This document shows, piece after piece, positions 755 through 39,465 of a DNA stretch of 39,472 bases. The stretch's first letter is position 1, and the number at the start of each line of letters is the position of its first letter. The notes beneath the pieces are model-generated. The model was not told the origin of the DNA, searched no databases, and saw only the letters and a list, made by a program, of their open reading frames with translations. The position numbers were made by a program, and so were the translations under genes. The DNA is taken from contig NZ_WPIK01000021.1 in assembly GCF_009754915.1 (NCBI RefSeq), positions 1-39,472 on the forward strand, written 5' to 3'. Source of the stretch: Mucilaginibacter arboris (GTDB taxonomy: Bacteria > Bacteroidota > Bacteroidia > Sphingobacteriales > Sphingobacteriaceae).

Positions 755-778
755 AAAAAAGGTCGATAAAAGAAGCAT
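755..778 (+). repeat. Interspersed repeat, copy 1
   Basis: The core GATAAAAGAAGCAT is at 765-778, preceded by an A-rich rather than T-rich block. It sits between the divergent starts of the deacetylase gene and gpsA. Confidence 0.85.
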
Positions 779-2231: not shown

Positions 2232-2255
2232 ATTTTTAGGTGATAAAAGAAGCAT
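2232..2255 (+). repeat. Interspersed repeat, copy 2 (prototype 24-bp form)
   Basis: It reads ATTTTTAGGT then GATAAAAGAAGCAT. The same 24 bp recur exactly at 3371-3394 and 12741-12764. It lies between the terminator at 2191 and the lipoprotein gene. This is one of only two cases where the first copy after a gene does not read ATGCTTC in the gene's sense. Confidence 0.93.
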
Positions 2256-2278: not shown

Positions 2279-2602
2279 ATGATGAAAAATTACTTGCAAT
2301 ATATTGTTATATCGTTTTTTGTAATTGTATTTACCAGTTGCAAAAACCCGGCAGAAAAAAACAAAATTATGGGCAACTGGCGCTCGGAAGATAAAAAAAC
2401 AGGATTAAAAATTACGGCAAAAGAGTTTACGCTGGATGAGGGCGAAGACCCGATTGCAGAAAGTTATTTTGTAAAAGGCGATACCATCTTTACTTCGTAC
2501 GAAGGCGCGCAACCTTATACTAAATTTGCAGTCAAAGATTTAACAGATAAGAGTATGACACTTGTTTATCCGGATTCTACAACTGTTACTTTTGTCCGTT
2601 AA
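2279..2602 (+). CDS. Small lipoprotein, lipocalin-like
   Basis: This 107-residue protein has a hydrophobic leader ending in a lipobox (FTSCKN, Cys about residue 21), so it should be lipidated and anchored to a membrane. The mature part begins KIMGNWRSEDKKTGLKIT and continues as alternating short strands ending in SMTLVYPDSTTVTFVR. That layout, with GxW near the start, is typical of small lipocalin-like lipoproteins of Bacteroidetes; the assignment is by pattern only. Two adjacent Met codons are possible starts (2279 or 2282). It converges on the heme oxygenase gene with a 15-bp gap and no obvious hairpin. Confidence 0.75.
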   Translation: MMKNYLQYIVISFFVIVFTSCKNPAEKNKIMGNWRSEDKKTGLKITAKEFTLDEGEDPIAESYFVKGDTIFTSYEGAQPYTKFAVKDLTDKSMTLVYPDSTTVTFVR

Positions 2603-2617
2603 CTTGTATCTTAAATA

Positions 2618-3220
2618 TCACGAAATACTTTGCCCGGATAGTTGTTGCTTATTTTGCACAAGCATAAAATATTCAAACAAAGTTAAAGCACTGCGGATAC
2701 TTTGATTATATGCTGAAGCATCAACCCTTGTATTTAAAACCTGCAAGAAATTTTTCCAGTTTGTAATTAAGCTTGCGGCATAAACCTGGTAATAATGAAA
2801 GCCTAAGTTAAACTTTTGCAAATTAGCGTTAACTTTTAACTTTTTAACAATTACATTTCCGCCTAAAGTTGCACCTTCTAAAACATACATAGCGCCTAAA
2901 ACAGCGGCATTACTTCCAATTAAAATGAGGTTTTTAGAATTAAATTCCGTTTCTGGCGCATCTATATCCAGTTCTTGCAGATCTTTTAGCAACGCAGGTA
3001 ATTTAATACGGTTGTTGATGTTTAGTTCGTTTTGTAAATTCTGGTCTAAACTTTCAAATAATTGCTGTTCAAAACAAGCATGGATGATGTAATTGGTTTG
3101 CAGTATCTTTTGGTATTCTTCTGCAGATAAAGTGCCATTCATTATTTTATCTACCAGCATCAATTGTTCCAGGTCATGGTGTTGTTTACTGGTTGCTTGT
3201 TTTAAAACTTCCTGAAGCAT
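2618..3220 (-). CDS. bphO: Biliverdin-producing heme oxygenase, bacteriophytochrome-associated type
   Basis: This 200-residue protein fits the HemeO/BphO family, which opens heme to biliverdin IXalpha with release of iron and CO. The N-terminal ATSKQHHDLEQ supplies the proximal heme ligand (His14 by alignment with AT-x3-H-x3-E; His15 is adjacent). MYVLEGATLGGNVIVKKL near residues 110-130 matches the conserved distal-helix block with its LGG turn. The gene lies directly downstream of the bacteriophytochrome gene on the same strand. That is the usual bphP-bphO partnership, in which the oxygenase makes the biliverdin chromophore. The two genes are separated by 214 bp holding a 90-bp inverted repeat pair, so cotranscription is likely but not certain. 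Confidence 0.85.
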   Translation of the reverse strand: MLQEVLKQATSKQHHDLEQLMLVDKIMNGTLSAEEYQKILQTNYIIHACFEQQLFESLDQNLQNELNINNRIKLPALLKDLQELDIDAPETEFNSKNLILIGSNAAVLGAMYVLEGATLGGNVIVKKLKVNANLQKFNLGFHYYQVYAASLITNWKNFLQVLNTRVDASAYNQSIRSALTLFEYFMLVQNKQQLSGQSIS

Positions 3221-3304
3221 TTACTTAAATGAGGTTATATTGATTTTTTAATTGACCCTAAAATTAGAGAATTTGTATTTTTAATTTTTATCAGAAAAAA
3301 AACA

Positions 3305-3394
3305 ATGCTTCTTTTAGCACTATAAAATTGATGTTTAGGTTTCTCCTGCCGATAACAATTATAGAAACTTATTTTTAGGTGATAAAAGAAGCAT
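3305..3394. repeat. 90-bp inverted pair of the interspersed repeat (copies 3 and 4), element A
   Basis: The left end is ATGCTTCTTTTAGC (3305-3318) followed by TATAAAATTGAT. The right end is ATTTTTAGGT then GATAAAAGAAGCAT (3371-3394). The interior is unique apart from a weak AGGTTTC/GAAACTT dyad. Two other pairs in the window (12674-12764 and 39375-39465) have almost the same span. It sits between bphP and bphO. Confidence 0.88.
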
Positions 3395-3434
3395 GTAAAA
3401 TAAATGGAATAAAAATCAGACAAATCATGGGCCT

Positions 3435-5672
3435 TTAATTTTTAAAAGCAATGTAAAAAGTTGTTCCTATACCTAACCCGCTTTCAAACCAAATCCTGGC
3501 ATTATGTTTTTCTACAATACGTTTAACAATGGCTAAGCCAACGCCTGTTCCTTCATAATCTTTTACATTATCCATGCGTTTAAAAAGTTCAAATACACGG
3601 CTGTAATAAGTTACATCAATACCCAAACCGTTATCAGTAACAGAATAAATAGTTTCGTCATGGTTAGCTATACCTTCTACTTTTACTTTTGCCGGAACAG
3701 ACCTTGAAGAATATTTTACCGCGTTATTGATCAGATTGGTAAAAACCTGCCCGATCATTGTTTTATCGCCGGCAATATCCGGTGTTTTGCCAATTGTAAA
3801 TTCCAGGTTTTCAGGTTTTATTCCCGCAACAACTTCATCTTTAATCTCGGTTAAAAGCAATTGCATGTTAATTTTTGCCGCCTCAATATCAGCTTTGCCA
3901 AGCTGCGTATAACGTAGTATTTCTTTAATAAGCAAGTTCATTTTATCAGTGCCAGCTACTATCCTTGTCAAAATGGTTTTGGCGCTATCGTCCAGGCTTT
4001 TATTTCTTGCAAGTAAAAGTTCAGAATAGGTTTTAATGGTAGATAAAGGTGTACGTAAATCATGAGAAATGGTATAACTGAAAGTATCCAACTCCTCATA
4101 AGCCAGTTGTAGCCTGTCGTTCAACAGCCTTATTTCGTTGGCTTTGCGGTTAATGGCATCTAAAATTTCTTCCCTCATCTTAACCACCAGTAAAATTTCT
4201 TTGTTGCTCCAGCGTACCGATGTGTTTTTTACAAGCTGTGTCCAGGCTTCAAAAGATTTTCGCGGCAACAATTGCATCGAACCGTTTTCTGCTTGTTCAA
4301 CAGGTTTTTCCGGGTTTCCGGCCCAGGTAATAGCTTCAAGTTGTTCTGGTTTAAACCAAATGATCAACTCATTTAATTCCCTCGAAAGTGAACACGCCAA
4401 AATACCGCTTGCTACGTTACTGTAATTTTGTGCCGGTAAAAACAGCTCCGGAAAATTGTTTGTATAATAAATGTTGTTCTGCATATTGCTTTTTAGCCAT
4501 AGCAATATGTCTTCAATTTGTTCCTCATTGGGCGTAATGCCAATCCTGCTGATGGTATTGTTAAAAACCAGGACAGCCCCGGCGGCATTTGTAATATCTT
4601 TTATGGTAGCAGAATGACTGGTAAGCGCACCGGAAATTTCGTTATCTAACTTGATGTACTTGGACAACTCGGTGGCAGCATTGTCTAAAGCAGACAGGTT
4701 TTCGGTATTTTCTTCTTCCTGCCGGTATTCTAACGCTGATGACAGAATTTGTCCGATCAGTTTTGAAGCATCGCGGGCTTTATAACTGATAAAGCGCGGC
4801 GTATAATTATGGCAGGCAATTAACCCCCAAAGTTCTCCATGTGCCAGCAAAGAAATGCTGAAACTGGACTGAACGCCCATGTTTTTTAAATACTGGATAT
4901 GAACCGGAGAAACAGCCCTTAAAGCAGAATTACCAAGGTCTAAAGGTGTATTTTCGTCCTGAAAAGTAAGAATAGCTGAACTTGTGCTGTTTACATCGGC
5001 AATAATTCGGGTTAAATTGGTTTTATATAGTTCCCGGGCTTGTTTAGGAATATCTGATGCCGGATAATGCAAGCCTAAAAAAGGTTCTAAATCATCGTTT
5101 TTAACTTCTGCCACAACTTCGCCATGCCCGTCTTCATGAAATTTATAAAGCATTACCCGATCATAGCTGATAATTTTTTTGATTTCAAAAGCAGCATTTT
5201 TAAGTAGTGTATTTAAGTTTTTGCCGGATAATATTTCTGAAACAGATCGGCCAATCGTTTTTTGAACATCAAAATTTAAATCAGAAGTTCCAGGTTCAAA
5301 TTCTAATATCAGTTCAGTATTGGATGAAGTGAGAATGATATTATAGCTATTTTGATCAATAGTAATCTGATAAGGGTTAACCGAGTCAAAGTTTTTACTG
5401 TTGTTTGCAAGGTTTAATAAGTTGGTCAACTGATCTTTTGCGCCTGATATTTTAAGATAGCTTTCCAGCTCGTTAATAGGTTTACCAAGAAAATGTCTGG
5501 CATCTTTCTCTATAAATTCTTTAATATTTTGGCTGATGTAACTTATTACAAAAGTTTTGCTGTTAATAGCAACTAAAAATCCGTGTGCTTGTATTTTACC
5601 TGGAATATGTATGGGTTCTCTGTCGCAATTGGTCAAATCTACCTGGTATTTACTCATATCGGTTACGAACAT
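3435..5672 (-). CDS. bphP: Bacteriophytochrome sensor histidine kinase
   Basis: This 745-residue red/far-red photoreceptor kinase has the domain order PAS-GAF-PHY-HisKA-HATPase and no receiver domain. Cys16, in NCDREPIHIPGKIQAHG, is the N-terminal biliverdin-attaching cysteine of true bacteriophytochromes. The GAF domain has PASDIPKQAR (204-213) and LWGLIACHNYTPR. The PHY tongue is seen as WAGNPEKP and PRKSFEAW. The kinase H-box is SYTISHDLRTPL with phospho-acceptor His537. NLINNAVKYS, DNGLGI and GTGVGLAI are the N, G1 and G2 boxes. ATG at 5672 is used; Met6 at 5657 is an alternative. It precedes the heme oxygenase gene. With no receiver fused or adjacent, its response-regulator partner must be elsewhere. 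Confidence 0.94.
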   Translation of the reverse strand: MFVTDMSKYQVDLTNCDREPIHIPGKIQAHGFLVAINSKTFVISYISQNIKEFIEKDARHFLGKPINELESYLKISGAKDQLTNLLNLANNSKNFDSVNPYQITIDQNSYNIILTSSNTELILEFEPGTSDLNFDVQKTIGRSVSEILSGKNLNTLLKNAAFEIKKIISYDRVMLYKFHEDGHGEVVAEVKNDDLEPFLGLHYPASDIPKQARELYKTNLTRIIADVNSTSSAILTFQDENTPLDLGNSALRAVSPVHIQYLKNMGVQSSFSISLLAHGELWGLIACHNYTPRFISYKARDASKLIGQILSSALEYRQEEENTENLSALDNAATELSKYIKLDNEISGALTSHSATIKDITNAAGAVLVFNNTISRIGITPNEEQIEDILLWLKSNMQNNIYYTNNFPELFLPAQNYSNVASGILACSLSRELNELIIWFKPEQLEAITWAGNPEKPVEQAENGSMQLLPRKSFEAWTQLVKNTSVRWSNKEILLVVKMREEILDAINRKANEIRLLNDRLQLAYEELDTFSYTISHDLRTPLSTIKTYSELLLARNKSLDDSAKTILTRIVAGTDKMNLLIKEILRYTQLGKADIEAAKINMQLLLTEIKDEVVAGIKPENLEFTIGKTPDIAGDKTMIGQVFTNLINNAVKYSSRSVPAKVKVEGIANHDETIYSVTDNGLGIDVTYYSRVFELFKRMDNVKDYEGTGVGLAIVKRIVEKHNARIWFESGLGIGTTFYIAFKN

Positions 5673-5745
5673 TATAAATTCAATAGTATTATAAAGATTG
5701 CTTTTTCAATGTAAGAAGAGCTGTTTTATAGTTGAATTGAACAAT

Positions 5746-5778
5746 CAAAAATAAATTAATATTAATAGTTGCAGTACA
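5746..5778 (-). promoter_or_regulatory. Predicted Bacteroidetes-type promoter for bphP
   Basis: On the minus strand the -7 box TATTTTTG (5753-5746) fits TAnnTTTG. A TTG at 5778-5776 lies 22 nt upstream as a possible -33 element. This gives a 5' leader of roughly 65-70 nt. Confidence 0.45.
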
Positions 5779-5850
5779 ATAATCTGATTTTTGTGTGAAG
5801 ATACGTTTAAAAGATCTCGTGTTGTTTTAAAAGCGTTTACTTTTTCCGAT

Positions 5851-5874
5851 AAAAAAGGGTGTTAAAAGAAGCAT
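5851..5874 (+). repeat. Interspersed repeat, copy 5
   Basis: The core is TTAAAAGAAGCAT at 5862-5874. It lies just past the helicase terminator and reads ATGCTTCTTTTAA in the helicase sense. Confidence 0.85.
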
Positions 5875-5897
5875 TGGCAAAAGGTGTTATAAAAAGC

Positions 5898-12620: not shown

Positions 12621-12673
12621 TTTTCTCTAATTTCTTGGAACTTGTTTAAACTTATATCAGAAAAAAAATCCCG

Positions 12674-12764
12674 ATGCTTCTTTTAGCAGTATAAAATTGA
12701 TTGCCTTGCTGGCAGATACGAAAAGTAAATGGCTATGCAGATTTTTAGGTGATAAAAGAAGCAT
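12674..12764. repeat. 91-bp inverted pair of the interspersed repeat (copies 7 and 8), element B
   Basis: The left end is ATGCTTCTTTTAGC (12674-12687) followed by AGTATAAAATTGAT. The right end is the exact prototype 24-mer (12741-12764). Both ends match element A at 3305-3394, but the interiors differ. Confidence 0.88.
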
Positions 12765-12828
12765 ATCAAAATTGAAACATAATCTAAACAACTTCTTAAA
12801 GCCTAAATTTAAAGACAGTATCCAACTG

Positions 12829-14427: not shown

Positions 14428-15270
14428 GTGGTGGACGAAAAACAAAGGTACTTTGCAGAACTTGCTTTTGATGGCACAAAATATCACGGCTGGCAGATCC
14501 AGCAGAATGCAGTAAGTGTGCAGGAAGTTTTTAACAAAGCTTTAGGGGTTTTGCTCCGGCAACCAATTGAAACGGTTGGCTGCGGCAGAACCGATACTGG
14601 TGTGCATGCCAGGCAGTTGTTTGCGCATTTTGATATAGGGGGAGAAGGTGCGGGGTTTGAGGCGCGAGGTGCGGGAGATGAGCGGGGAACGGGGAGCGGA
14701 GAACGTGGAGCGGTAAACCCTGAACCCTCAACTATCAGCCATCGTCTAAAAACCTCCCTCAACGCTCTTCTGCCAAAAGATATTGCCGTTAAAAACATTA
14801 TTCCTGTTGCTGCGGATGCACATGCGCGTTTTGATGCTACGCTGCGTGCTTACGAATATCATATTCATTTCGGCAAAGATCCTTTTAAGCAGAATTATAG
14901 CTGGCAACTGCGGGATTTTCCTGATCTGGAACTGATGAACCAGGCAGCAAATATCATCAAAAAATACCGCGATTTCAGTTGTTTCAGCAAAAGCAACACG
15001 CAGGTAAAAACAAATTTTTGTGTGATAAAAGAAGCATGCTGGCAGCCAAAAGAGGACGGCCTGATTTTTCATATTTCTGCCGATCGTTTTTTGCGCAATA
15101 TGGTGCGCGCCATTGTTGGAACTTTAATTGCTGTAGGCCGAAAAGAAATGGAACCCGAAGCGGTAAGAAAGATCATCGAAAGCAAGAACAGAAGCAATGC
15201 CGGCGTTTCTGTCCCAGCCTGTGGTTTATATTTAACTAAAGTAGTTTATCCGTATATTACTTCAACTTAA
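14428..15270 (+). CDS. truA: tRNA pseudouridine(38-40) synthase with a low-complexity insertion
   Basis: This 280-residue TruA converts U38-U40 in tRNA anticodon arms to pseudouridine. The opening LAFDGTKYHGWQIQ and the catalytic GCGRTDTGVHA with Asp56 are clear. Later blocks are LNALLPKDIA, ARFDATLRAYEYHI, FSCFSKS and DRFLRNMVRAIVGTL. The oddity is residues about 71-105, a Gly/Glu/Arg-rich stretch (GGEGAGFEARGAGDERGTGS) inserted where typical TruA has a much shorter connector. The DNA there (14638-14743) is GC-rich and resembles the intergenic repeat at 18.26-18.45 kb. A copy of the main repeat lies at 15014-15037. GTG start codons at 14428 and 14431 are both possible; no nearby ATG fits. 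Confidence 0.92.
   Translation: MVDEKQRYFAELAFDGTKYHGWQIQQNAVSVQEVFNKALGVLLRQPIETVGCGRTDTGVHARQLFAHFDIGGEGAGFEARGAGDERGTGSGERGAVNPEPSTISHRLKTSLNALLPKDIAVKNIIPVAADAHARFDATLRAYEYHIHFGKDPFKQNYSWQLRDFPDLELMNQAANIIKKYRDFSCFSKSNTQVKTNFCVIKEACWQPKEDGLIFHISADRFLRNMVRAIVGTLIAVGRKEMEPEAVRKIIESKNRSNAGVSVPACGLYLTKVVYPYITST
14638..14743 (+). repeat. GC-rich repeat-like insertion inside truA
   Basis: A purine-rich, GC-rich stretch with repeated GAGCGGGGA/GGAGCGG units is followed by a piece reading CTGAACCCTCAACTATCAGC. The first part resembles GGAGCGGGGAGCAGGG at 18383-18398. The second resembles the spacer at 26959-26985 (TGAACCATCAACAATTAGCC). The insertion keeps the truA frame open. Confidence 0.55.
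15014..15037 (+). repeat. Interspersed repeat, copy 11, inside truA
   Basis: ATTTTTGTGT then GATAAAAGAAGCAT, so 22 of 24 bp match the prototype including the AT block. It encodes Val-Ile-Lys-Glu-Ala-Cys in truA. Confidence 0.85.
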
Positions 15271-20120: not shown

Positions 20121-20144
20121 ATGCTTCTTTTATCAGCATAAAGT
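20121..20144 (-). repeat. Interspersed repeat, copy 15
   Basis: ATGCTTCTTTTATC then AGCATAAAGT. It lies just after vapC, reading ATGCTTC in the gene's sense. Confidence 0.88.
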
Positions 20145-24336: not shown

Positions 24337-24382
24337 ATTTTTAGTTGATAAAAGAAGCATGCTTCTTTTATCAACTAAAAAT
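24337..24382. terminator. Perfect 46-bp palindrome made of two repeat copies (16 and 17), likely nrdA terminator
   Basis: Two copies of the interspersed repeat meet head to head and overlap at their terminal AT: ATTTTTAGTT, GATAAAAGAAGC, then the exact complement. All 23 bases of each arm match around the centre 24359/24360. The RNA would form a long hairpin 6 bp after the nrdA stop. Confidence 0.85.
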
Positions 24383-26902: not shown

Positions 26903-26926
26903 ATGCTTCTTTTATGGGTATAAATG
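26903..26926 (-). repeat. Interspersed repeat, copy 19
   Basis: ATGCTTCTTTTATG then GGTATAAATG. It is just downstream of the radical SAM gene and reads ATGCTTC in its sense. Confidence 0.88.
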
Positions 26927-27496: not shown

Positions 27497-27520
27497 ATGC
27501 TGTTTTTACTGCACCATTTT
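27497..27520 (-). repeat. Hybrid motif at the stop codon of the YkuK-like gene
   Basis: The minus strand reads CAG TAAAAACAGCAT, in which TAA is the stop codon. The end mixes the second motif (AAAAACAG) with the CAT of the main repeat. A single hybrid copy is weak evidence on its own. Confidence 0.35.
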
Positions 27521-28666: not shown

Positions 28667-28690
28667 ATTTTTACCCGATAAAAGAAGCAT
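28667..28690 (+). repeat. Interspersed repeat, copy 21
   Basis: ATTTTTACCC then GATAAAAGAAGCAT (28677-28690). It lies 4 bp after the stop codon of ettA and upstream of the antitoxin gene. It differs from the core and AT block of copy 20 mainly by one inserted C. Confidence 0.9.
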
Positions 28691-34083: not shown

Positions 34084-35745
34084 TTAACTATTCAACAACT
34101 CTCTCGCATTTTGCAAAGCACTTTCGCCAGGTTTGCTGCCGCTTAACATTTTTGCAATTTCCAGCACACGTTCTTCTTCCGTCAGTTTTTTTATTTTGGT
34201 GGAAGGAACTTTTCCAGTATCATTTTTATAAACTAAGAAATGGGAATTGCCTTTGCTTGCAATTTGAGGAAGATGTGTTATGGTTACTACTTGTAAAAAC
34301 TGCGATAATTGCTCCATCACCAAACCAACTTTATTGGCCACTTCACCGGAAACGCCGGTATCAATCTCATCAAAAATAATAGTTGGCAAAGCGGTGTAAC
34401 GGGAAATAAGCGATTTAATACTTAACATTACGCGCGAAAGTTCTCCGCCTGAAGCTACTTTACTCATTTCAGCAGGTTGATGTCCTTTATTTGCAGAGAA
34501 CAAAAAGCGGATATGATCAATTCCGTTTTTATCAAATGCTTCTTTTACCACTATTTTATTTTCAATTTTTAAAACTGCCTGGTTCATATCTACCTCAGAC
34601 AGCGTTTTTAAAATTTGTTTTTCAATTTCCGGGATTGCTTTTTGCCGGTTTGCTGAAAGTTGAACGGCCATTTTTTGTAGTTCAGCCTTCTGCTTTTCAA
34701 GTTGATTTTGCAGGTTTTCTATGGCATCATCGCCAGATTGGATTTGGTTTAACCGGCTGGATAAATCTTCCTGAATCCGCAGTAATTCTGCATTACTGGT
34801 TACCCGATGCTTCTTTTGCAGGCTAAAAATCAAGTTTAACCGATCACTTATTTTTTCACTTCGTGCTTCATCAACTTGTGTTGCCTGCTCCATATCTTCC
34901 ACTTCGGCAACAATATCTTTTAGTTCGATGTTGATGCTGCTTAAACGCTGACTAAGTTCTCCGGCTTTCGGATTGTATTTTTCTAATGCCGTTAATAATT
35001 GTAAAGATTCTTTAAACTGGTTCAAGGCGGCCAGATCACTTTCCTGCAACAAATAATTAACGCTTAATAAGTTGCGCTTAATTTCTTCTGCATTGTTTAA
35101 AGCATATAATTCCTGCTCTAATTGTTCCTGTTCATCTTCAACCAAATTGGCTTTTTCAAGTTCATCAAACTGAAACTGTAAATAATCTTCCTCGCTTTTT
35201 GCCTTTTCACTTTCCTCAATTAATTGCTGTAACTGAGTTGATGATTTTTTATAGGTAAAAAAAGCATTGCGGTATTTTTCTAATAATTCGGGATGATTGG
35301 TAATCGAATCAACAACCAGCAATTGAAAACCAGGATCGTTAATTTCTGCTGTTGCATGCTGCGAATGAATGTCGATGAGTTTTTCGCCAAGCTGTTTTAA
35401 AGACATAAGGTTAACAGGCGTATCGTTTACAAAAGCACGGGATTTTCCATCGGCACTAATTTCTCGGCGCAAAACGGTTTCTGCTTCATAATCCAGATCG
35501 TTCTCCTCAAAATATTTTTTCAGATGAAAACCTTCAATCCTGAAAAAACCTTCGATCACACACTTTTTTTGCTGATTAAAAAAGTACTTACTTTCGGTAC
35601 GCTGGCCTAAAATAAGCGAAAGCGCACCTAAAATAATAGATTTACCAGCGCCGGTTTCGCCGGTTATGATGTTTAAACCGGCATCAAATTCGATATCCAG
35701 ATTATCAATAAGTGCATAATTATTAATCGTTAACCTACTCAGCAT
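34084..35745 (-). CDS. recN: DNA repair protein RecN
   Basis: This 553-residue SMC-like ATPase acts early in double-strand-break repair. Walker A is TGETGAGKS (28-36). Two long coiled-coil arms occupy roughly 150-400. The C-terminal head has SGGELSRVMLSIKSL (signature), TIIFDEIDTGVSG (Walker B and D-loop) and the switch region VVTITHLPQIASKG. Length matches the family. Two exact repeat copies (34536, 34807) and a degenerate one (35244) lie in the gene. They encode Val-Val-Lys-Glu-Ala-Phe and Leu-Gln-Lys-Lys-His-Arg in coiled-coil or linker regions where sequence is tolerant. Confidence 0.95.
   Translation of the reverse strand: MLSRLTINNYALIDNLDIEFDAGLNIITGETGAGKSIILGALSLILGQRTESKYFFNQQKKCVIEGFFRIEGFHLKKYFEENDLDYEAETVLRREISADGKSRAFVNDTPVNLMSLKQLGEKLIDIHSQHATAEINDPGFQLLVVDSITNHPELLEKYRNAFFTYKKSSTQLQQLIEESEKAKSEEDYLQFQFDELEKANLVEDEQEQLEQELYALNNAEEIKRNLLSVNYLLQESDLAALNQFKESLQLLTALEKYNPKAGELSQRLSSINIELKDIVAEVEDMEQATQVDEARSEKISDRLNLIFSLQKKHRVTSNAELLRIQEDLSSRLNQIQSGDDAIENLQNQLEKQKAELQKMAVQLSANRQKAIPEIEKQILKTLSEVDMNQAVLKIENKIVVKEAFDKNGIDHIRFLFSANKGHQPAEMSKVASGGELSRVMLSIKSLISRYTALPTIIFDEIDTGVSGEVANKVGLVMEQLSQFLQVVTITHLPQIASKGNSHFLVYKNDTGKVPSTKIKKLTEEERVLEIAKMLSGSKPGESALQNARELLNS
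34536..34559 (-). repeat. Interspersed repeat, copy 23, inside recN
   Basis: ATGCTTCTTTTACC then ACTATTTTAT, read in the recN sense as GTAAAAGAAGCAT (Val-Lys-Glu-Ala). Confidence 0.85.
34807..34830 (-). repeat. Interspersed repeat, copy 24, inside recN
   Basis: ATGCTTCTTTTGC then AGGCTAAAAAT. The AT block is fully conserved. The recN frame reads it as Gln-Lys-Lys-His, a different frame from copy 23. Confidence 0.85.
35244..35267 (+). repeat. Degenerate repeat copy inside recN
   Basis: ATTTTTTATA then GGTAAAAAAAGCAT. The flank and core match apart from a G-to-A change in the core. Confidence 0.5.
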
Positions 35746-36698: not shown

Positions 36699-37895
36699 TT
36701 ATAAAAGTTCAATAATTTTTTGGCAGATATCGGCAGCAACTTCTGTTTTACTTTTCAGTCCGGTTTCTGTTTTTCGTAGCTGTTTATCTATCATCGTTAC
36801 TTTGTTTGTATCCGTTTTAAATCCGGCGCCAGCATCAGCCAGCGAGTTTAAAACGATCAGATCCAGGTTTTTTCGCTGTAGTTTATCCAAAGCATATTGT
36901 TCGCCATCGTTTGTTTCCAGCGCAAATCCAACTAAAATTTGATTATGCTTCTTTTGTGCACCTAAAGTTTGCAAAATATCTACCGTTGGTTTCAGTTCGA
37001 TAGTCAAACTAACATCTTGTTTTTTTATTTTCTGATCTGAAACAGTTTTTGGTGTAAAATCAGCAACGGCCGCATTCATCACACAAATACGTACATCCGG
37101 AAAATAAGTTAAACATTGTTCCAGCATTTCTTCGGCAGAAGTAATATTAATGCGCGTAATGCTTTTGTTTTCCGTTTCCTGCTGAGAAGGACCGGAAATT
37201 AAAGTAACCTCTGCGCCTAAATTCGCCAGCTCGTCTGCTAACTTAAATCCCATTTTCCCGGAAGAATGATTGCCGATATAACGAACAGGATCAATCGCTT
37301 CGTAAGTTGGACCTGCTGTAACCAGCACTTTTTTACCTGCTAAAAGAAGCATTTGACTAAGCGACTGCGTTAAAAAAGCTACAATATCTTTCGGTTCTGC
37401 CATTCGGCCTTCGCCAACTAAACCGCTTGCCAGTTCGCCGTAAGCTGGTTTTATCAATATGTTTTTATACTCCAGCAGTTTTTGAACGTTGTTCTGGGTT
37501 GATGGATGTTTCCACATATCCAAATCCATCGCAGGAGCAAAATAAACCGGACATTTTGCAGAAAGGTAAGTAGCCGTTAATAAATTATCGCATAAGCCAG
37601 CGGCCATTTTAGCTAAAGTATTTGCAGAAACAGGTGCAATCAGCATCAAATCTGCCCATAAACCTAATTGCACGTGGTTGTTCCATTCGCCCGTTTCGGT
37701 TTTGTAATATTGAAATAAGGCCGGACGTTTAGAAAGGGTAGAAAGTGTTAAAGGTGTGATAAATTGAGTTGCTTCCTGCGTCATTACCACTTGTACGGTT
37801 GCACCGGCTTCTACCAATAACCGGATTAAAGAAGCCGATTTATAGCTGGCAATACTTCCGCAAACACCCAGCAAAATTTTTTTACCCTTCAGCAT
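36699..37895 (-). CDS. coaBC: Bifunctional phosphopantothenoylcysteine decarboxylase / phosphopantothenate-cysteine ligase
   Basis: This 398-residue enzyme makes 4'-phosphopantetheine, the precursor of coenzyme A, in two steps. The N-terminal FMN-dependent CoaC domain (about 1-180) has GVCGSIASYKSASLIR, catalytic His74 in WNNHVQLG, APVSANTLAKMAAGLCDNL and PAMDLDMW. The C-terminal CoaB domain begins with VLVTAGPTYEAIDPVRYIGN and has SSGKMGFKLAD and KKQDVSLTIELKPT. ATG at 37895 is chosen; the frame opens two codons earlier at TTG. A -7 box (TATTTTTG) ends 3 nt before this ATG, suggesting a leaderless transcript. Two exact repeat copies lie inside the gene. Confidence 0.95.
   Translation of the reverse strand: MLKGKKILLGVCGSIASYKSASLIRLLVEAGATVQVVMTQEATQFITPLTLSTLSKRPALFQYYKTETGEWNNHVQLGLWADLMLIAPVSANTLAKMAAGLCDNLLTATYLSAKCPVYFAPAMDLDMWKHPSTQNNVQKLLEYKNILIKPAYGELASGLVGEGRMAEPKDIVAFLTQSLSQMLLLAGKKVLVTAGPTYEAIDPVRYIGNHSSGKMGFKLADELANLGAEVTLISGPSQQETENKSITRINITSAEEMLEQCLTYFPDVRICVMNAAVADFTPKTVSDQKIKKQDVSLTIELKPTVDILQTLGAQKKHNQILVGFALETNDGEQYALDKLQRKNLDLIVLNSLADAGAGFKTDTNKVTMIDKQLRKTETGLKSKTEVAADICQKIIELL
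36945..36968 (-). repeat. Interspersed repeat, copy 25, inside coaBC
   Basis: ATGCTTCTTTTGTGC then ACCTAAAGT. Except for a G in place of A it matches copy 9 through the spacer. It is read as Gln-Lys-Lys-His-Asn in the CoaB domain. Confidence 0.82.
37329..37352 (+). repeat. Interspersed repeat, copy 26, inside coaBC
   Basis: TTTTTTACCT then GCTAAAAGAAGCAT, antisense to the gene, which reads it as Met-Leu-Leu-Leu-Ala at the linker between the CoaC and CoaB domains. Confidence 0.85.
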
Positions 37896-37898
37896 GTT

Positions 37899-37906
37899 CA
37901 AAAATA
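37899..37906 (-). promoter_or_regulatory. -7 box candidate 3 nt before coaBC
   Basis: TATTTTTG then AAC then ATG on the minus strand. The rpoZ terminator lies just upstream, so coaBC needs its own promoter, which supports this site. Confidence 0.45.
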
Positions 37907-39374: not shown

Positions 39375-39465
39375 ATGCTTCTTTTATGCCAATAAAATTT
39401 GTGCTTATACTATATGTACAACCGACCTTATAGGAGGACAAATTTTTGCATGATAAAAGAAGCAT
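39375..39465. repeat. 91-bp inverted pair of the interspersed repeat (copies 27 and 28), element C
   Basis: The left end is ATGCTTCTTTTATGCC then AATAAAATTT (from 39375). The right end is ATTTTTGCAT then GATAAAAGAAGCAT (39442-39465). The span is almost the same as in elements A and B, but the interior is different. It lies upstream of bamD at the window end. Confidence 0.87.

Follow-up and report, generated by a model that had tools for sequence, protein, structure and literature searches.

The 24-bp motif rATRCT(TC/GT)TTTTAyCrscnWWWWWt, which is repeated throughout the DNA analyzed here, probably acts as a DNA uptake sequence of this genus of Sphingobacteriaceae, judging by its likeness to the uptake sequences described in other bacteria. 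The 12-mer ATGCTTCTTTTA is its core. Inverted pairs of the core with a span of about 90 bp are best read as the central part of an old MITE, about 155 bp long with terminal inverted repeats (TIRs) of the GRGCCTGTTTAAATTT type, that contains two inverted copies of the motif. The window, as the term is used below, is the whole stretch of 39,472 nucleotides; the genome to which it belongs is designated G000, and the two sister species of the genus are designated G001 and G002.

Abundance and distribution of the motif

The motif was derived by aligning 193 copies from contig C1 of G000 and the window. It consists, in order, of a purine, the core, Y C R S C N, five to six A/T positions, and a final T. 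The A/T tract lies at +18 to +23, where G and C are scarce. The same picture was obtained with 111 copies from G001. The core is not a palindrome and has no hairpin of its own, and no Rfam family matched the window at the gathering threshold.

The window contained 26 exact copies of the core and 33 copies with at most one mismatch; shuffles of the window contained a mean of 0.84 and a maximum of 5 copies. In the whole of G000 (4.16 Mb in 83 contigs) there were 1947 exact copies, and the reversed word, used as a control, had 1 match. Copy counts depend on the words chosen. In 1.60 Mb of G000 the exact copies exceeded all 36 one-mismatch words together (774 versus 406), and three variants of the main form were enriched: ATACTTCTTTTA (118 copies), ATGCTGTTTTTA (141), and ATACTGTTTTTA (115). 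The density of the four variants was 1 per 1.39 kb (1127 copies in 1.564 Mb).

Exact copies showed no orientation bias, with 982 on the forward and 965 on the reverse strand of G000. Contig C1 had 144 copies in one orientation and 130 in the other (runs z 0.04). Contig C12 was balanced as well (133 and 130), yet its copies alternated too often (runs z 5.5), an excess that we attribute to the inverted pairs. This balance bears on an alternative explanation, in which the motif is the site of an abundant cytoplasmic DNA-binding or recombination protein (nucleoid-associated, Chi-like, or involved in segregation), is kept by selection, and has no part in DNA uptake. We regard this alternative as rather unlikely. 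Chi and KOPS sites are orientation-biased along the replichore; because the counts, taken over the whole genome and by contig, were balanced, a site of the Chi or KOPS type was rejected. The excess of perfect over one-mismatch copies also argues against a cytoplasmic protein, since the strong consensus of uptake sequences has been contrasted with the looser consensus of regulator sites (PMC1626085).

All three genomes of the genus contained the motif, the other two with 1118 and 2114 exact copies. In the rest of the family sample, 248 of 251 genomes had 0–10 exact copies each. The extended pattern was found 849 times in G000; among 394 other genomes of the phylum, a sample that left out the two sister species, 3 had one copy each and 391 had none. 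The control samples were draws from larger groups, and the relatives G001 and G002 are MAGs. This restriction to one genus in the samples is a further argument against the cytoplasmic-protein site. The idea that ATACTGTTTTTA might be an ancestral dialect present in sister genera was discarded, because in the sample this word was likewise restricted to the genus, with 332, 519, and 427 copies in the genus genomes and 0–13 in each of 108 others. A single viral contig matched the extended motif, with one copy in 7.8 kb; the match may be due to chance, or the contig may come from a phage of this genus.

The head-to-head pairs and the MITE around them

The original prediction described three inverted pairs of nearly equal span, and its coordinates were confirmed: the pairs at 3305–3394, 12674–12764, and 39375–39465 span 90, 91, and 91 bp, and the ends of all three are perfect 12-bp arms, head-to-head copies of ATGCTTCTTTTA (Table 1). 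They account for 6 of the 26 exact copies in the window. A peak of spans near 90 bp had been anticipated for the genome. In the histogram, drawn from 1,601,143 bases (38%) of G000 with copies having at most one mismatch, such a peak was seen at 83–97 bp. It comprised 73 pairs of head-to-head neighbors; in the other orientations, that range contained 6 tail-to-tail pairs, 4 forward-forward pairs, and 1 reverse-reverse pair. The 73 head-to-head pairs account for 146 of the 1180 copies; most copies of the motif thus lie outside pairs of this size. Minor head-to-head peaks occurred at 43–45 and 57–59 bp, and tail-to-tail neighbors peaked at 22–40 bp. Forward-forward neighbors had a small peak of their own, at a span of 67 bp (7 pairs).

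Table 1 Motif copies, pairs, and MITE copies in the window, with related pairs on contig C12 of G000
Feature	Position	Strand	Remarks
Motif copy, left arm of pair 1	3305..3316	+	Exact match
Motif copy, right arm of pair 1	3383..3394	-	Exact match
Motif copy, left arm of pair 2	12674..12685	+	Exact match
Motif copy, right arm of pair 2	12753..12764	-	Exact match
Third inverted pair, adjoins contig end	39375..39465	.	93-bp pair in corresponding G001 region
Degenerate MITE copy, TIRs decayed	3279..3424	.	HMM hit 3279–3424; core is pair 3305–3394
MITE copy, TIRs decayed but recognizable	12638..12795	.	HMM hit
Solo motif	767..778	-	Identical at aligned site in G001 and G002
Solo motif	2244..2255	-	Identical at aligned site in G001 and G002
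Solo motif	15026..15037	-	Identical in G001 and G002
Solo motif	20121..20132	+	ATAC variant in both sister species
Solo motif	26903..26914	+	Identical in G001 and G002
Solo motif	28679..28690	-	Identical in G001 and G002
Solo motif	34536..34547	+	Identical in G001 and G002
Variant motif ATGCTGTTTTTA	27497..27508	+	ATACTGTTTTTA in G001; same word in G002
Solo motif inside CoaBC-like gene (ORF 36699–37901, -)	37341..37352	-	Read as M-L-L-L
Tail-to-tail pair, perfect hairpin	24337..24382	.	Cores 24349–24360 and 24359–24370
Pairs with CCTCTCC..GGAGAGG hairpin	G000 C12 173693, 181684, 199172, 215292, 229371, 232368		

One explanation of the common size would be a functional unit of fixed length, about 90 bp, with a free interior, for example spaced receptor sites; such a unit would be compatible with uptake. 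The span peak is in keeping with it, as is the 93-bp pair of G001 that corresponds to the third pair of the window: it has one core mismatch, in the left arm, and its interior hardly aligns with that of the window pair (25 of 46 columns after gapping, which gives no confident alignment). The spans, however, vary over 15 bp and reach 118 bp where other repeats sit inside, and only 4 pairs of 83–97 bp were present in 400 kb of G001, so that the peak is species-dependent. Because TIRs lie outside many of the pairs and the interiors resemble each other as members of families do, the size is explained by descent. We consider a fixed unit quite improbable.

Six pairs of 111–117 bp on contig C12 of G000 contained a similar inserted hairpin (Table 1), and two more on the same contig (129048 and 237183) contained GACCTATAAGGTTTTCAAAACCTTATAGGTC. 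Both insertions are small repeats nested within MITE interiors.

The interiors of the three window pairs had been described as unrelated, which was partly right. By eye, however, many pair interiors belong, in degenerate form, to a few families, including that of 12674–12764, and dispersed homologs were found for two of the three elements among the matches listed. In a BLAST comparison of the window with G001 and G002, for which 40 first-look candidates were scored per genome, the elements at 12638..12795 and 3279..3424 had dispersed relatives in the sister species; among the matches listed, those of 3279–3422 were in both G001 and G002 and those of 12643–12799 in G002.

The same prediction proposed a composite mobile element with two inverted ends. 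An element with two inverted copies of the motif does exist; its ends, however, lie outside the motif, and it is MITE-like rather than a REPIN. TIRs of the GRGCCTGTTTAAATTT type were present outside many motif arms, and paired TIRs defined 15 elements of 149–198 bp in 2.35 Mb from the three genomes. The motif was found on 29 of the 30 arms of these elements (26 exact, 3 the ATAC variant; the remaining arm had 3 mismatches), compared with an exact motif in 1.4% of random stretches. It began 26–35 bp from the TIR end on 25 arms and 51–58 bp from it on 5. Eight of the 15 elements came from stretches of G000 chosen independently of the motif, and 15 of their 16 arms were exact; the other 7, and part of the set of 111 pairs described below, came from stretches of G002 picked through matches to the window elements, a choice that favors the motif. 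Identical 3-bp flanks (TAA, TTA, or AAA) bordered 6 of the 15 elements and the flanks of the other 9 differed; transposition therefore probably made a 3-bp target duplication, which these flanks support in part.

In the same mixed set, 111 motif pairs had spans of 83–97 bp, and 80 of their 222 flanks kept a TIR with at most 3 mismatches, compared with about 1.4% at random. Single TIR sites hardly exceeded the control (187 versus 141 with at most 2 mismatches), and therefore the case for a MITE rests on the paired TIRs, the flanks, the HMM hits, and an empty site. The empty site, which had been proposed as evidence to look for in relatives, was found in the one case examined: the element at C1:74608–74761 of G000 is absent from G001, whose sequence continues across the site with a single AAA. 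At two of the window elements the surrounding synteny is broken. Some TIR pairs were separated by more than 1 kb. The seed of the MITE HMM was 15 of 94 pairs, those with TIR-like flanks on both sides, and the HMM is thus built around the motif. In the window, the TIRs of the element at 12638..12795 are still recognizable as GAACTTGTTTAAACTT at 12638–12653 and, on the other side, CTAAACAACTTC at 12784–12795; its 3-bp flanks, TTG and TTA, are not identical.

We liken this family to the MITEs of DDE insertion sequences, presumably with TIRs and target duplications of the IS5 kind. Like them, its members are small, have TIRs, and lie scattered as degenerate copies; some are bordered by identical 3-bp flanks, and an empty site was seen in one instance. 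It differs in having two inverted copies of a motif that is found genome-wide and that stays sharp while the TIRs and the interior decay, which is the simplest reading of the copies in hand.

The original prediction likened the element to a REPIN or MITE moved by a transposase elsewhere and named a RAYT-type or other transposase gene as something to look for. On the REPIN reading, a RAYT (Y1) transposase would have mobilized the pairs. Two Y1_Tnp genes are present in G000, and a 95-bp motif pair lies about 100 bp after the stop codon of the one that encodes 171 aa. These genes are located among other repeats, however. The 181-aa RAYT-like gene (YLHYNP), at about 25.5–26.4 kb of contig C83, is flanked by copies of a repeat of the GGGATTTGCAATCCCG type, and the 171-aa gene has other repeats downstream in addition to the one motif pair. 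HUH/Y1 transposition is not known to make TIRs or duplications of the target flanks, both of which argue against it here (identical flanks in 6 of 15 copies), and the motif core is without a hairpin. As in REPIN/RAYT systems, a short word is repeated as inverted pairs that are dispersed and mostly non-coding; the non-palindromic unit, the TIRs outside the pair, and the location of most copies outside such pairs set the motif apart. With TIRs outside the pair and the Y1 genes amid other repeats, mobilization by a RAYT is disfavored, and we hold it to be very improbable. A palindromic repeat of the GGTCGGGATTTGCAATCCCGA type was seen on both sides of the RAYT-like gene on C83; the gene and this repeat probably make up a true REP/RAYT system that exists alongside the present motif. 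TnpA-REP genes of Bacteroidetes flanked by atypical structures have been described (PMC6006769).

Conservation between species and genomic position

Aligned blocks of G000 and G001 had a mean identity of 78%. Of 89 exact copies of G000 aligned in G001, 50 were identical, compared with 10.6% of random control 12-mers; BLAST blocks stop at large insertions, so that motif copies in species-specific MITEs are under-represented in these figures. Another 30 copies differed without a gap; in 29 of these the differences were limited to one or two positions, mostly 2, 5, and 6. The other 9 were gapped. In the opposite direction 50 of 72 copies were identical, 12 differed, and 10 were gapped. The largest gap, of 8 bases, lay in G000 at a site where G001 has a copy, and none was the size of a MITE. 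When all four variants were followed between G000 and G001 (146 sites), 72 sites had the same word and 37 another of the variants, so that one of the four was kept at 109 sites; 14 were gapped and 23 differed. Identity in the core was 0.90–0.98 except at the variable positions 2, 5, and 6. It was 0.79–0.94 at +18 to +24 and about 0.74 (0.58–0.87) at the other flank positions. At alignable sites, therefore, copies change mainly by substitution rather than by insertion. The bounded 24-bp footprint, strongly conserved across species, is also what the site of a cytoplasmic protein would show.

The window contained 31 copies of the four variants. In G001, 12 had the same word, 3 another variant, and 3 neither, and 13 were unaligned; the three G001 sites with neither were a one-mismatch word, a two-mismatch word, and an alignment shift with the word visible. 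The corresponding numbers for G002 were 11, 1, 3, and 16, and its three sites with neither were a one-mismatch word, a partly gapped site, and an unlike sequence. A 3.3-kb segment of the window (2594–5897) is absent from G002, in which 12 bases separate the flanks that align. The segment contains a 745-aa ORF as well as the first MITE copy. In 28 unalignable gaps between syntenic blocks, the motif was present in both species in 5, in one species only in 3 and 3, and in neither in 17 (Fisher p 0.022, on small numbers).

One copy lies within a CoaBC-like gene, presumably where a linker joins the two domains, and encodes M-L-L-L in all three members of the genus. The gene was compared with 13 other loci, 2 from the same genus and 11 from outside. 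For nine of the 11 out-of-genus relatives the alignment crossed the motif ungapped, and different residues occupied the site (K-L-P-L in two); the two most distant alignments were gapped nearby.

The position of the copies was examined with genes called mechanically, as ORFs by length alone. By this measure 86% of the sequence was coding and 14% non-coding, and 691 of the 1127 four-variant copies (61%) were non-coding, 375 were coding, and 61 lay at an edge. Tail-to-tail pairs with a span of at most 40 bp (22–40) numbered 26, of which 1 was in a predicted gene. Among the 25 outside ORFs, 24 were within 60 nt of the 3′ end of a gene, and none was between divergent genes. The example in the window forms a perfect hairpin with a fold z of −9.4, and its cores begin 18 bp past the end of a predicted gene. 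By position and predicted fold, the tail-to-tail pairs are terminator-like. Terminator-like pairs and a non-coding bias match known uptake sequences, and they weigh against the site of a cytoplasmic protein.

These data bear on the possibility that the motif is a mere part of the MITE and that the solo copies are decayed MITE remnants. The presence of the motif on nearly all arms of the TIR-defined copies fits such an origin, as do the concentration of copies in non-coding DNA and the finding that 432 of 758 exact copies were inside MITE HMM hits, a tally that includes short hits and is unfit for fractions. Many of those hits, however, are only 28–60 bp long and hold little beyond the motif and its A/T tract, and GT variants are nearly absent from them (6 of 252). 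A third of the copies, 375 of 1127, are in predicted genes; the differences between species are mostly one or two substitutions at three positions; and the CoaBC alignment runs ungapped through the motif in 9 of 11 relatives. The identity of 50 of 89 copies, against 10.6% of control 12-mers, is not expected of neutral remnants. Remnants are in our view an improbable source of the solo copies. The MITE does not account for the motif as a whole: the pairs of 83–97 bp hold 146 of 1180 copies, many copies are in genes, and copies change mainly by substitution. The part of the copies that belongs to the MITE is not independent.

Contig C1 of G001 contained no copy of any variant from 47,942 to 122,276 (about 74 kb), where about 53 would be expected from the rate in the rest of its first 400 kb. 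Pfam matches among 20 proteins scanned from this stretch included a TrwC relaxase, a TraD/TraG-type protein, ArdC, a tyrosine integrase, HsdM (a type I methylase), a KAP NTPase, and a lantibiotic dehydratase. For 5 of the 20, no Pfam family matched. The proteins at its edges (a TrkA-N protein and an EngA-like GTPase) look chromosomal, and the element is therefore smaller than the motif-free stretch. We read the region from about 50,000 to 121,000 as an integrative conjugative or mobilizable element. Because a motif that accumulates slowly would in any case be absent from recent arrivals, this stretch argues against an active transposon more than against other conserved sites.

DNA uptake as the probable function

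Uptake sequences have been described for Neisseriaceae and Pasteurellaceae (PMC1626085, PMC13020248). The USS of Pasteurellaceae has a core with downstream A/T-rich tracts, is present on both strands at nearly 1 copy per kb, has a strong consensus and a preference for non-coding DNA, forms close oppositely oriented pairs, and does not arise by insertion (PMC1626085). The motif shares all of these features. It differs from the USS in its unrelated core, in having one clear A/T tract instead of two, in occurring in another phylum where no T4P platform or secretin was found, and in being carried by MITE copies. The DUS of Neisseriaceae is a 12-mer with thousands of copies, dialect variants, and inverted pairs at terminators (PMC3630211); inverted pairs at terminators are also described in PMC1626085 and PMC13020248. 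The 12-mer core, the thousands of copies, the related variants, and the inverted terminator-like pairs are shared with the motif. Its sequence is different, and so is its flanking motif, since the Neisseria DUS is described as being without one (PMC1626085); the DUS receptor ComP is a minor pilin (PMC3630211), whereas a pilus platform and secretin were not found here. Conjugative elements of Neisseriaceae can be detected by their atypical DUS distribution (PMC7371117). Because the combination of features is that listed for USS and DUS in PMC1626085, we judged uptake to be the most likely function.

The machinery fits less simply. ComEC and DprA were each found in all three genomes of the genus; they prove little, since they were also present in 10–11 of 14 control genomes. 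The T2SS/T4P platform protein (PF00482) was found in 0 of the 3 genus genomes and in 13 of 14 controls, and the secretin (PF00263) in 0 of 3 and 6 of 14. Both known uptake-sequence systems use machinery of the T4P type. If the motif is an uptake sequence, the outer-membrane step would therefore need other proteins. The same result speaks for the site of a cytoplasmic protein, and many of the statistics obtained here could also arise from a motif kept by selection as the site of some other DNA-binding protein. Descent from the DUS or the USS was rejected, because the core differs and neither PF00482 nor PF00263 was found in the three genomes. Natural transformation in Bacteroidota is described for Riemerella, where R. 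columbina prefers its own DNA (PMC7965970), which makes uptake in this phylum plausible. The k-mer counts of that study were made for three flavobacteria; those words that are visible are A-rich, and their role in uptake was left open. Among the passages on this subject found in the open-access PMC literature, none gave a convincing uptake sequence for Bacteroidota, and PMC7965970 came nearest.

We infer the following mechanism. A putative surface or periplasmic receptor would attach to the 12-bp core, and the A/T tract, which lies downstream at a distance of about one helical turn, would be bent or opened by it; DNA bearing the motif would thereby enter preferentially. Recombination of the fragments taken up would then drive new copies, formed by point mutation, to higher frequency at tolerant places such as intergenic DNA and protein linkers, and would keep old copies sharp. 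On this reading, the old MITE family of about 155 bp bears two inverted copies near its ends; its members have decayed but have kept the motif arms, which are now seen head to head at a distance of about 90 bp, around an interior that seems free.

How uptake sequences evolve, by molecular drive or by selection, and how receptors read them are old questions. If the motif is an uptake sequence, it would be an independent case in Bacteroidota against which the generality of the design of core plus A/T tract, the use at terminators, and the drive model could be tested, and its presence in cells that seem to have neither a secretin nor a pilus platform would suggest a DNA receptor of a new kind. 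We tentatively suggest, as a doubtful but possible combination, an uptake sequence in Bacteroidota cells for which the searches gave neither a T4P platform nor a secretin, and alongside it a MITE with two copies of the signal incorporated into its ends, which would spread from cell to cell by exploiting the transformation system of its host. Any benefit to the MITE from carrying the signal is conjecture. If this were true, each copy of the MITE would be a strong uptake substrate, and the carriage of an uptake signal would be a new way of spreading for a selfish element.
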